Positions 7,273 to 35,841 of a stretch of DNA of 64,000 nucleotides are shown here, piece after piece. The notes below the pieces were generated by a model. It was given only the letters and a program-made list of their open reading frames with translations, did no database searches and was not told the origin of the DNA. The stretch lies in the NCBI RefSeq assembly GCF_037975215.1, contig NZ_CP150239.1:112501-176500 (forward strand), given 5' to 3'. The translations under genes and the position numbers were made by a program. The stretch's first letter is position 1. Each line of letters opens with the position of its first letter. This DNA comes from Solibacillus sp. FSL R5-0449 (lineage in GTDB: Bacteria; Bacillota; Bacilli; Bacillales_A; Planococcaceae).

Positions 7273-9006
7273 ATGAGGGAAATTATTGATCAATCTCAAA
7301 ATCGAGGTAAAGCGGATTTCATCATTCAACATGCGCAAATTGCCGATGTCTTTAATTTACGCTGGCGCAAAGGCGATGTTGTAGTGGCAAACGGCAAAAT
7401 TATTGCGGTTTCAGAGCCAGGTGAATTTGAAGCAGAACAAGTAATAGATGCAAGCGGGAAGTATATTGTACCGGGCTTTATTGATGCGCATATTCATATT
7501 GAATCATCTATGCTTGTCCCCAAACAGTTTAATCGAATCGTGCTTCCACATGGTGTAACGGCAGTCGTTACAGACCCGCATGAAATTGCGAATGTTTCAG
7601 GTAAAGCAGGATTGGAATTTATGCTGCAGGATATTGAAGATGTCGAAATGGATATTTATTTCATGCTGCCTTCCAGTGTACCGGGGACCTCTTTTGAACA
7701 TGCGGGAGCTGTGCTGACGGCAAAAGATTTAAAAGAATTTATCGGTCATAAGAATATATTGGGTTTAGCAGAAGTAATGGATTTCCCGGCTGTACTGAAC
7801 GGGGAAAAAGAAATGCTCGCAAAATTAAAGCTTGCTCAAGAAAATGGGATGATCATTGATGGCCATTGTGCAGGTTTAACAAGCTCTCAAATACGCGGTT
7901 ACAGGGCAGCAGGAATTACAACAGATCATGAATGCGTCACAGCCGAAGAGGCATTGGACCGAGTGGAACAGGGGATGTATGTGTTCATTAGGGAAGGGTC
8001 AGCAGCCAAAAACTTAAAAGCCATTTTACCTGCTGTAACAATGTCGAATGCACGGCGTTTTGCTTTTTGTACGGATGATAAGCATCTGGATGAACTGATG
8101 GAACAGGGAAGCATTAACTACACAGTGGCATTGGCGATAGCGGAAGGAATGGATCCATTACTGGCGATCCAGCTTGCATCATTAAATGTCGCTGAATGTT
8201 ATCATCTAAAAAATAAAGGTGCGGTTGCTACAGGTTATGATGCGGATTTTATAGTAGTTGAGGATTTGCAGACGATGAAAGCGCTGGCTGTATGGAAAAA
8301 TGGCAAAAAAGTTGCGGAAAATGGAGAAATGCTTTCACCAATTCCAGAAAAAACTACTGTGGAAACGTCCATTTTACAATCTATACATTTACCAGAGCTG
8401 ACAGTTGAAGATTTACGCTTGCCGTTTACAGGAAACCGGGCAAATGTCATGAAAATTGTGCCAAACCAGCTCATTACAAAACGGGTTGAGTTGGAAGTTG
8501 ATGTAGCAAATGGACAATTTGTACCCTCTATTGAAAAGGACTTATTGAAGCTGGCGGTTGTGGAGCGGCATCACCATGTTGGGACAAAGGCAGTCGCAAT
8601 CGTACAAGGTATCGGTATTCAAAGCGGCGCAGTAGCAACAACGATTTCCCATGATTCACATAATGCGATCGCCGTAGGAACAAATGATGAAGATATGTTA
8701 TTGGCACTTAAGGCTCTTCAAGAGATACAAGGCGGGTTAGTCGTTGTAAATGAAGGAGAAGTGATTGCTTCCCTCAGTCTGCCAATTGCCGGTCTTATGA
8801 CAGATGCTCCTGCTGAACAAGCGAAGCAGGAGCTGGAGAAATTACATGAAGGTTTGCATACAATTCATCCTACACTCGACTATCATTTGTTTCTTACTTT
8901 ATCGTTTCTCGCTTTGCCGGTTATTCCTGATATTAAGCTTACAGATACAGGCTTATTTGATGTTACAAAATTTCAGCATATTCCGGTTGAGATTTTTAAT
9001 GGCTGA
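7273..9006 (+). CDS. ade: Adenine deaminase
   Basis: A 577-residue metal-dependent amidohydrolase that converts adenine to hypoxanthine and ammonia. The metal-binding motif PGFIDAHIHIESSM is at residues 67-80 (His73, His75). It is followed by VVTDPHEIANVSG, the DGHCAG segment, and the C-terminal HHHVGTKAVA and SHDSHNAIAVGTND segments typical of Ade. The length matches the family (~570-600). AGGGGGTGG lies just before the ATG. It sits downstream of the glyoxylate aminotransferase, separated by an imperfect terminator, so the pair may be only loosely co-expressed. Role: cytoplasmic purine salvage or use of adenine as nitrogen source. Confidence 0.95.
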   Translation: MREIIDQSQNRGKADFIIQHAQIADVFNLRWRKGDVVVANGKIIAVSEPGEFEAEQVIDASGKYIVPGFIDAHIHIESSMLVPKQFNRIVLPHGVTAVVTDPHEIANVSGKAGLEFMLQDIEDVEMDIYFMLPSSVPGTSFEHAGAVLTAKDLKEFIGHKNILGLAEVMDFPAVLNGEKEMLAKLKLAQENGMIIDGHCAGLTSSQIRGYRAAGITTDHECVTAEEALDRVEQGMYVFIREGSAAKNLKAILPAVTMSNARRFAFCTDDKHLDELMEQGSINYTVALAIAEGMDPLLAIQLASLNVAECYHLKNKGAVATGYDADFIVVEDLQTMKALAVWKNGKKVAENGEMLSPIPEKTTVETSILQSIHLPELTVEDLRLPFTGNRANVMKIVPNQLITKRVELEVDVANGQFVPSIEKDLLKLAVVERHHHVGTKAVAIVQGIGIQSGAVATTISHDSHNAIAVGTNDEDMLLALKALQEIQGGLVVVNEGEVIASLSLPIAGLMTDAPAEQAKQELEKLHEGLHTIHPTLDYHLFLTLSFLALPVIPDIKLTDTGLFDVTKFQHIPVEIFNG

Positions 9007-14530: not shown

Positions 14531-15478
14531 ATGAGTCAAATAGACAAAGAATTCATCTTAGTTTATGGAGATGCATTCGTTGATTATATTGCAAATGATC
14601 AGACCAATACTTCATTTACGAAGTACTTAGGTGGCGCAACAATCAATGTTGCAGCAGGGATTAGTCGTATTGGGGCACCGTCAGCACTTATTACAATTAC
14701 AGGCGATGACGAAACATCGGAATTTTGCCGTCAGGAGATTACAAAAGAAGGTGTGAATCTTGATTTCGCTGTATTTGATGCGAAGAAGCGTGTAAGTGGT
14801 GTATATGTGCATTTAACTGAAAAATGTGAGCGAGTATTTAAAGATTATGTCGATGAGACGCCGAATTTACAAGTAACACCTCAGCAATTACAGGAAGAAG
14901 CATTCAAACGTGCTTCGATTTTAAATGTTTGTTCAGGAACGATGTTTGAAGAAACAGCATTAAAAACAACACGTGCCGCAGTGGATATGGCTAAGGATAA
15001 GGGAGCGATCATCGCAATCGATGCGAATATCCGCCCGCTTCGTTGGGAATCCGAGGAAGTCTGCCGTGAGACGATTACTTCATTCTTTGAAGATGCAGAT
15101 ATTTTAAAGCTAACTGATGAGGAATTATATTTCCTTACAGAAACAACAACAATTGAAGAAGGTCTTCAAAAGTTGGATGAGCTGTTAGTACCGATTGTGC
15201 TTGTTACAGTTGGCGCTGATGGAGCTTATGCCGTATTAAACGGCGAAGTAACACATGTTCCCGTTGAACGAGTTGTTCCTGTAGATACAACAGGCGCAGG
15301 CGATGCGTTTATGGCTGGTGTACTCCGCTATGTTCATTTCAATGGTTTACCTACAGTAACAGAAGATTTAGTAAGCTGTGTCGCATTCGGCAACAAGCTG
15401 GGCGCAATGGCGGCAACTAAAGCCGGTGCATTAACGGCACTGCCAAGCTACGAGGAAATTAAGCATTTAATTAAATAA
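14531..15478 (+). CDS. PfkB-family carbohydrate kinase (fructokinase-like)
   Basis: A 315-residue ribokinase-fold kinase. It shows the N-terminal substrate motif LGGATINVAAGISRIG (33-48) and the C-terminal signature DTTGAGDAFMAG (252-263), in which Asp258 is the catalytic base. The lid-forming GVYVHL region lies near 90. The best match is the fructokinase/2-keto-3-deoxygluconate kinase group; the substrate is not certain. No sugar transporter is adjacent. The start has TCGGAGG upstream, and a good terminator follows. Confidence 0.88.
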   Translation: MSQIDKEFILVYGDAFVDYIANDQTNTSFTKYLGGATINVAAGISRIGAPSALITITGDDETSEFCRQEITKEGVNLDFAVFDAKKRVSGVYVHLTEKCERVFKDYVDETPNLQVTPQQLQEEAFKRASILNVCSGTMFEETALKTTRAAVDMAKDKGAIIAIDANIRPLRWESEEVCRETITSFFEDADILKLTDEELYFLTETTTIEEGLQKLDELLVPIVLVTVGADGAYAVLNGEVTHVPVERVVPVDTTGAGDAFMAGVLRYVHFNGLPTVTEDLVSCVAFGNKLGAMAATKAGALTALPSYEEIKHLIK

Positions 15479-15493
15479 ATTTTATATAGAGCA

Positions 15494-15536
15494 AGCTGTC
15501 TTCGAAGTGTTTAACATTTTGGAGGCGGCTTTTTTG
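15494..15536 (+). terminator. Terminator after the PfkB kinase
   Basis: AGCTGTCTTC (15494-15503) pairs with GGAGGCGGCT (15521-15530) with several G-T pairs, followed by six T. Confidence 0.8.
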
Positions 15537-15553: not shown

Positions 15554-15860
15554 TTATTAGAAGATTGCGGCCGGTTATTAGAAGAAGTTGGATGGTTATT
15601 AGAACAAGTGACGGGTTTATTAGAAGAAGTGGAGCGAAGGAGCTTCATTTTGTGAGTGCGAGGTGGCAAAGGAGGGCGTTTTGATTTTTATTAAAACAAT
15701 AATCGACGATATTAGAAAAAGTCAGAGCGATATTAGAAAATGCAGGGGATTTATTTGAACATTACAGTCTGATATTAGAACAACGGACGGTTATATTAGA
15801 AAATCCCAACTTTATTAGAACAAATGAAAATATATTAGAACTTCCCCCAATATATTAGAA
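15554..15860 (+). repeat. Phased array of (T/A)TATTAGAA words, 13 units
   Basis: The 9-base word starts at 15554, 15575, 15596, 15617, 15688 (TTATTAAAA), 15709, 15730, 15751 (TTATTTGAA), 15772, 15793, 15812, 15832 and 15852. Steps are 21 bp except one 71-bp gap and a final 19, 20, 20. The bases between words are not conserved. The array occupies the gap after the kinase terminator and before the XRE gene, with no credible gene in it. The 21-bp step equals two helical turns and also seven codons (the words would read Leu-Leu-Glu), but stops at TGA and TAA break the frame. Confidence 0.9.
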
Positions 15861-34839: not shown

Positions 34840-35658
34840 TTGAAAAAGTTATTGAAATTAATCATTTTTATAGGTGTTGTCTATCTATTTTTATATATAA
34901 ATAATAATTGGCTTGTCACGACCGATTATGTACATGAATCAGAGAAAATTCCGGCGAGTTTTGATGGATACCGGATTACCCAAGTGACCGATCTGCATGA
35001 TGCAACATTCGGGGAAAATCAGTCACGGTTAGTAAAAAAAGTGCAGGCTACCAAACCGGATGCTATTTTCTTAACGGGTGACTTAGTAGATAGTCGCCGC
35101 TATGACCTGGAAAACAGTTTGCAGGCTGTCCGCCAGTTGGTCGAAATTACGGACGTATACTATGTCCTCGGTAACCACGAAGTTGCATTGAATTTAACAG
35201 ATGAAATATATACTGCTTTAAATGAGCTCGATGTCCATGTAATGCCGAATGATGCGGTTCAATTGGAGCGCAACGGAGAGCACATTATCATTGCGGGTGT
35301 TGAGGACCCGTTAATGGGAAAAGAAGTGGGTCAGTCGATAGATGAAGCCCTTTACAATATGGATCCGGACGCATTTAAAGTGTTATTGTCGCATCGTCCT
35401 GAACTGTTTGAAACATATGTTGAAAAGGAAATCGATTTAGTGTTTACAGGGCATGCACATGGCGGCCAAATTCGTCTGCCATTTATCGGCGGACTTTTTG
35501 CGCCAACACAAGGTTTCATGCCAAAATACACTGCGGGGATTTATGAAGAGCAGGAAACGGAAATGATCGTAAACAGAGGGTTGGGGAATAGTCTGTTTCC
35601 TTACCGGGTCTTTAATTTGCCTGAAATTTATGCCGTTGAGCTGAAAAAGGAAAGCTAG
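34840..35658 (+). CDS. Membrane-anchored metallophosphoesterase (YkuE-like)
   Basis: A 272-residue calcineurin-like phosphoesterase with an N-terminal membrane anchor (LLKLIIFIGVVYLFLYI). The metal-site motifs appear in order: VTDLHDA, LTGDLVD, VLGNHE, LLSHRPE and FTGHAHGGQIRLP. The substrate may be a phospholipid or nucleotide derivative and cannot be told. The TTG start at 34840 has no convincing ribosome site, so the start is uncertain. Confidence 0.87.
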   Translation: MKKLLKLIIFIGVVYLFLYINNNWLVTTDYVHESEKIPASFDGYRITQVTDLHDATFGENQSRLVKKVQATKPDAIFLTGDLVDSRRYDLENSLQAVRQLVEITDVYYVLGNHEVALNLTDEIYTALNELDVHVMPNDAVQLERNGEHIIIAGVEDPLMGKEVGQSIDEALYNMDPDAFKVLLSHRPELFETYVEKEIDLVFTGHAHGGQIRLPFIGGLFAPTQGFMPKYTAGIYEEQETEMIVNRGLGNSLFPYRVFNLPEIYAVELKKES

Positions 35659-35668
35659 TCAGTAGTTT

Positions 35669-35841
35669 TTCTAATATATGCTGCATGTTTTCTAATAAGC
35701 TTGAAAAAGTTCTAATATAATGTGGAAGTTCTAATAAATGTTCAAGAAGTTCTAAAATAGGTTTTAGTTCTTCTAATAAACAGGTGAACTGTTCAAATAA
35801 AGTGTTCCATTGTTCTAATAAACTCAAAAAAGTTCTAATAT
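35669..35841 (-). repeat. Phased array of TATTAGAA words, 9 units, opposite orientation
   Basis: On the + strand the word reads TTCTAATA(T/A), starting at 35669, 35690, 35710, 35729, 35750 (TTCTAAAAT), 35771, 35792 (TTCAAATAA), 35813 and 35833. Steps are 21, 20, 19, 21, 21, 21, 21 and 20. It fills most of the 284-base gap between the phosphoesterase and rhodanese genes. On the - strand one frame stays open and would encode Leu-Leu-Glu every seven residues, but it has no ribosome site. Confidence 0.88.

Follow-up and report, generated by a model that had tools for sequence, protein, structure and literature searches.

Analysis of a 64,000-nucleotide stretch of the Solibacillus sp. FSL R5-0449 chromosome (NZ_CP150239.1, positions 112,501 to 176,500 of the forward strand; hereafter the window, whose numbering is used for its features) raised the question of why a short word should recur in phase across non-coding DNA, and what could be reading it. 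The word WTATTAGAA occurs 23 times in the window against 2.78 expected, the largest count among 100 shuffles being 7. A sequence-only reading had described thirteen copies at 15554-15860 with 21-bp phasing (later 19-20 bp), placed every copy on the same face of the helix with freely varying bases between them, and proposed either a multi-site protein-binding or nucleoid element or an undescribed dispersed repeat family. The array is confirmed and the two candidates hold together, although three corrections were required and protein binding remains an inference.

The array and its dispersed family

The stretch at 15554-15860 on the plus strand holds 13 words, 11 exact and 2 with one mismatch, in steps of 21, 21, 21, 71, 21, 21, 21, 21, 21, 19, 20 and 20 bp. 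The 5′ block (15554-15625) consists of four exact words at 15554, 15575, 15596 and 15617, and it is separated by an inter-block gap region (15626-15687) from a 3′ block (15688-15860) of nine words, of which those at 15688 and 15751 carry one mismatch in the 8-base core. The 71-bp distance between blocks was not mentioned in the sequence-only reading. Its claim of a common helical face is only partly right, as the 19- and 20-bp steps move the last three words 2, 3 and 4 bp out of the 21-bp register. Nor are the spacers wholly free: over 336 units of this genome (word with at most one mismatch at both ends of a 21-bp step) the unit reads WTATTAGAA-N-A-W, with A at 88% in column 10 and A or T at 90% in column 11, while columns 15-19 are near random.

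The array lies between a PfkB-family kinase gene (14531-15478), which is followed at 15493-15531 (plus strand) by an intrinsic-terminator-like hairpin with a stem of 18 pairs and a T tail (1 found, 0.4 expected in shuffles), and a gene with an HTH_3 domain. A second element of the short form was found on the minus strand at 35669-35841, with 7 exact words and 2 one-mismatch words in register. Its 3′ end lies about 10 bp after the stop codon of a plus-strand metallophosphatase-like gene (34840-35658), and a rhodanese-like gene lies beyond.

Across the genome (3,582,823 bp, one contig) the pair TATTAGAA-N10-13-TATTAGAA, that is, words 18-21 bp apart, occurs 199 + 125 times with 0 in the reversed control, so the alternative that the word is no more frequent or phased than in shuffled AT-rich sequence does not hold. 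The three-word register of 19 and 20 bp has 53 matches with up to 3 mismatches, 34 of them exact in all 24 bases, against 0 in the control. One out-of-register match with 3 mismatches was dropped, leaving 52 elements that share six words mostly 21 bp apart followed by steps of 19, 20 and 20/21 bp; arrays at 192726, 242589, 333907 and 2888826 are not counted among them. Aligned on this register without gaps, the units differ in consensus: the unit at -42 has one mismatch in 36 of 52 and its consensus reads TATTTGAA. The first word stands at -105 or -104 and the last at +59 or +60 in 51 of 52 each, and 31 of 52 have at least two words of an upstream block. By eye, the DNA just before the first word looks rich in G and that just after the last word rich in C in many of the 15 elements inspected. 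Interestingly, three tandem copies of an element unit of about 235 bp with very similar spacers lie at 313523-314320 of this genome and six elements lie within 40 kb at 2688935-2728536. Clusters also appear in two further Solibacillus genomes, G159 (3.04-3.07 Mb) and G163 (506-544 kb).

Among 261 genomes of the family, register matches with up to 2 mismatches were found in 8 of 16 in the genus and in 0 of 245 others, so the element is dispensable at genus scale. By identity of the neighbouring kinase with that of this genome, the eight are the nearest (94-100%, the other eight 85-90%). The same three-word pattern lies in named records of S. faecavium and S. merdavium, the only two species among 13 stretches found in a search that may leave out very near relatives; S. 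merdavium and S. faecavium are very probably the genomes G153 and G152. In the eight Solibacillus genomes without register matches, a degenerate four-word pattern (which also missed G153, a genome with register matches) found only one TTATTAGAA array, at 1441476-1441547 of contig C1 in G162, a species outside the group of eight, possibly a remnant or a transfer. A chain detector run on 18 stretches of 20 kb from those eight genomes found none except an 18-bp repeat of nine units around TGTTCATCAA at 7688-7838 of a stretch of G157, which is probably coding. However, the detector also found nothing in one 20-kb stretch each of G156 and G163, which do carry the element, so a blank stretch says little. 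No exact three-word match was found in viral contigs, and no BLAST match of the window element was found in 72,556 plasmid records.

Selection on words and spacing

Orthologous elements of this genome and G159 were compared to establish whether the words are maintained or merely freshly copied. G159 has 51 register matches, of which 49 lay in the stretches compared; pairing by flanks gave 40 reciprocal pairs, of which 38 aligned at the anchor and 2 were dropped. In the 3′ block, words outside the search anchor differ at 3.9% of sites (n 1654), anchor words at 2.5% (n 912) and spacers at 20.6% (n 3630), while the 60 bp before and after differ at 27.7% and 26.2%; in long elements the 60 bp before are part of the inter-block gap. 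A first pass over all 40 pairs, two of them misaligned at the anchor and with the 5′ block and gap included, gave 4.5%, 26.5% and 27.0%. Of 284 steps, 277 kept their length, 5 changed and 2 did not align, and indels per kb amount to 1.6 in the 3′ block, 8.0 in the gap and 17.8 in the downstream flank. Paralogues share 84% of word bases but 44% of spacer bases (1326 pairs). Words and spacing are therefore maintained at fixed loci, not merely freshly copied.

These observations bear on the possibility of a non-autonomous mobile element, in which the words would be sites of a transposase or recombinase and the copies its spread. The dispersed copies do have one architecture, some paralogues at separate loci share up to 85% of spacer bases, and the orthologous intergenic region lacks the element in the genomes G153 and G164, where by eye the terminator is followed closely by the next promoter-like region; G153 keeps GGTTATTAAGAAACC there, perhaps a deletion scar. 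The stretches of G152 and G161 did not show the end of the kinase gene, so the site was not read in them. The words, however, are direct repeats, and no inverted ends were noticed by eye in the 15 elements inspected, without a dedicated search. Most copies are old, since spacers are on average 44% alike among the paralogue pairs and 75% among the 40 orthologue pairs, yet words stay conserved at fixed loci, which a selfish relic would not need. This reading is therefore considered unlikely.

As 21 bp is seven codons, coding or decayed repeats of a heptad coiled-coil peptide (LLExxxx) were also considered. By eye, the frame reads L-L-E with few stops in the 5′ block, and in 3 of 52 elements an open frame of at least 80 codons spans the element, which is taken for chance. 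Spacer substitutions do not follow codon phase (0.222, 0.229, 0.220), the steps of 19 and 20 bp and the inter-block gaps such as 71 and 82 bp break the frame, and by eye a stop lies inside the tandem copy at 1078534, so that the coding reading is rejected as very improbable. It is our inference that gene finders may miscall these arrays as small heptad proteins.

No signal of a structured RNA was found either. Folding energies of 16 arrays, taken as single sequences on both strands, lie within z -2.12 to 2.36 of shuffles, and no Rfam match at gathering thresholds was found in 8 loci, 5 with Solibacillus elements and 3 with arrays of other genera.

The gap between blocks differs in sequence between loci yet keeps its length. 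Removal of 5 duplicates from 149 entries left 144 distinct elements, 79 of which had a measurable gap with at least three words in the 5′ block. Of these, 77 fall near a ladder of about 10 bp at 50, 61, 71, 81, 92, 101, 112, 121 or 132 (53 at 80-82, 10 at 71-72, others at 50, 61, 91-92, 101-102, 112-113, 121 and 131-132), while 2 do not (69 and 98). On 57 distinct locus values the vector strength is 0.905 at 10.25 bp and 0.237 at 3 bp. Common descent inflates this (81 and 82 make up 34 of the 57 values), several of the longest values come from tandem loci, and nearly every rung can be reached from 71 or 81 by gain or loss of whole 20-21-bp units. The independent evidence for a single turn is thus the two base classes and the window locus, where 71 bp in this genome faces 82 bp in the orthologue of G159 and 81 bp in that of G163. 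One within-locus difference, 82 against 69, is not a helical turn. Helical phasing is supported with exceptions rather than exact for every copy.

Position beside gene ends and possible role

By a simple ORF-based gene call, 50 of 52 elements have as nearest neighbour on at least one side a gene that ends towards them, 46 of these within 150 bp. Of the 50, 40 follow a same-strand gene and 10 lie antisense before an opposing gene's end with no same-strand gene upstream, while the remaining 2 of 52 lie between divergent starts. Terminator-like hairpins are found within 110 bp in 30 of 40 with a same-strand gene upstream and in 18 of 29 with an opposing gene downstream, against 0 of 12 and 2 of 23 on sides where a gene starts and 17 of 184 control windows. 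Of ten neighbouring proteins scanned, several are housekeeping, namely RecA, ribosomal protein S1, GlmM and polyphosphate kinase. The 3′-end position could be mere tolerance of insertions there, and no bias of orientation with replication was seen (28 with the fork, 24 against, taking the contig start as origin, which the change of GC skew near 1.5-1.8 Mb fits).

The position next to terminators and on the strand of the upstream gene in 40 of 52 could indicate that the words are read as single-stranded RNA by a protein or helicase in readthrough or antisense transcripts. This is doubtful, as the element mostly lies past a terminator, its spacing is protected from single-base indels, the fold and Rfam results given above (16 arrays and 8 loci) are negative, and 10 of 52 are antisense to the gene end beside them.

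The reading favoured here, with moderate confidence, is that the element is a row of binding sites for a sequence-specific protein acting on double-stranded DNA. Each site of about 12 bp (WTATTAGAANAW) is repeated mostly every two helical turns, so that identical subunits could sit side by side, head to tail, along one face, with the final 19- and 20-bp steps rotating the last sites progressively. Protected spacing and tolerance of roughly whole-turn changes between blocks fit such an assembly, although in the absence of an identified partner, binding data or a phenotype the protein remains inferred. Placement beside 3′ ends suggests, speculatively, a boundary or topological element of the chromosome working like E. 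coli BIMEs, in which a complex assembled on the array separates neighbouring transcription units or takes up transcription-driven supercoiling. If the arrays do dock an architectural protein, about 50 fixed chromosomal sites per genome, with word, spacing and gap length all under constraint, would give a ready system for studying cooperative assembly on DNA and boundaries between transcription units in Bacillota.

A docking or wrapping site for DNA gyrase itself is a further possibility, since BIME-2 of E. coli binds gyrase (PMC2817692) and gyrase sites are enriched downstream of highly transcribed operons (PMC6379681). However, the gyrase motif is a degenerate GC modulation of 10.75 bp (PMC6379681), whereas here an exact word recurs at 21 bp, and A+T is high in columns 0-11 of the unit apart from columns 6 and 9, with no second A+T peak in columns 12-20. 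Gyrase is thus an improbable partner.

Arrays in other Bacilli and known systems

Arrays of other words every 21 bp were found in other Bacilli. A detector without a preset word, run on 36 selected stretches, found one further phased array, GCTCATAGAA every 21 bp in another genus (g2), and two repeats (18 and 24 bp) taken to be coding, while shuffles gave none. The pattern TCNGAYAAA every 21 bp, which came from an impression of heptad hypothetical proteins and not from the present analyses, hit 10 of 261 genomes (8 of 32 in genus g8, 2 in genus g18; control 0) and proved to be mainly TTCCGATAAA arrays; reverse-complemented this is TTTATCGGAA, close to TTATTAGAA. In one genome (G057) a second word family, with units like GGTGATAAATTTAGAAAGTTG at about 21 bp, runs straight into the TTCCGATAAA array, as if one word were turning into another.

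The degenerate YTNNYRGAA four times at 21 bp hit 9 of 398 Bacilli genomes in 8 genera, this one included, with words such as TTCGCGGAA, CTCGCGGAA, TTAGTGGAA and CTAACGGAA. The reversed control also hit 4 of 398 genomes (1 to 4 matches each), so the class-wide skeleton is less secure than the Solibacillus family. Of 12 stretches inspected (11 loci), by eye 9 have a terminator-like hairpin close to the array, while one, in the genome G197, lies between divergent gene starts, against the 3′-end rule. Conservation in other genera rests on one locus each: in f33 words differ at 0 of 45 and spacers at 5 of 48, and in g8 words at 0 of 36 and spacers at 4 of 36, whereas the g18 pair went against it (words 7 of 38, spacers 4 of 31), though its alignment is doubted. 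It is possible, but not proved and at present tentative, that these belong to a Bacilli-wide chromosome-organising system, in which a protein whose specificity changes from lineage to lineage reads a 9-12-bp word every two helical turns beside gene ends (TTATTAGAA, TTATCGGAA, TTCGCGGAA, CTCGCGGAA, TTAGTGGAA, CTCATAGAA, CTAACGGAA) on the common skeleton YTNNYRGAA. Lineage-specific words of this kind would let protein-DNA co-evolution be followed across genera.

No prior description of these arrays was found in the literature searched, as judged mostly from titles and the start of abstracts. The arrays of other Bacilli resemble the present element in their words of the form YTNNYRGAA every 21 bp, mostly in intergenic DNA in the stretches inspected, but the words differ (for example TTCGCGGAA, CTCATAGAA and TTATCGGAA), the 19-bp register was not seen in those stretches, and a common origin is not shown. 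CRISPR arrays usually have near-identical repeats of about 20-40 bp with unique spacers of similar length, whereas here a 9-12-bp word alternates with 9-12-bp spacers, and spacers at the same place in two species are recognisably the same (79% alike).

Iterons of plasmid origins are typically direct repeats of about 20-22 bp bound on one helical face, and would be expected at a replicon origin beside a rep gene. Here, by contrast, 52 elements with drifting spacers inside the period are spread over the chromosome at gene ends, and none of the ten neighbouring genes scanned is a rep gene. Partition-site arrays such as parC and tubC are likewise head-to-tail arrays of short direct repeats that appear to be bound cooperatively, but they generally number one or few per replicon, with repeats mostly about one turn apart.

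The REP/BIME elements of enterobacteria share with the present element abundant extragenic copies and group-specific sequences, and are protein-binding (PMC2817692); they also appear to favour the 3′ ends of transcription units. REPs are imperfect palindromes, in BIMEs in alternating orientation (PMC2817692), whereas the Solibacillus elements are built of non-palindromic words in one orientation.
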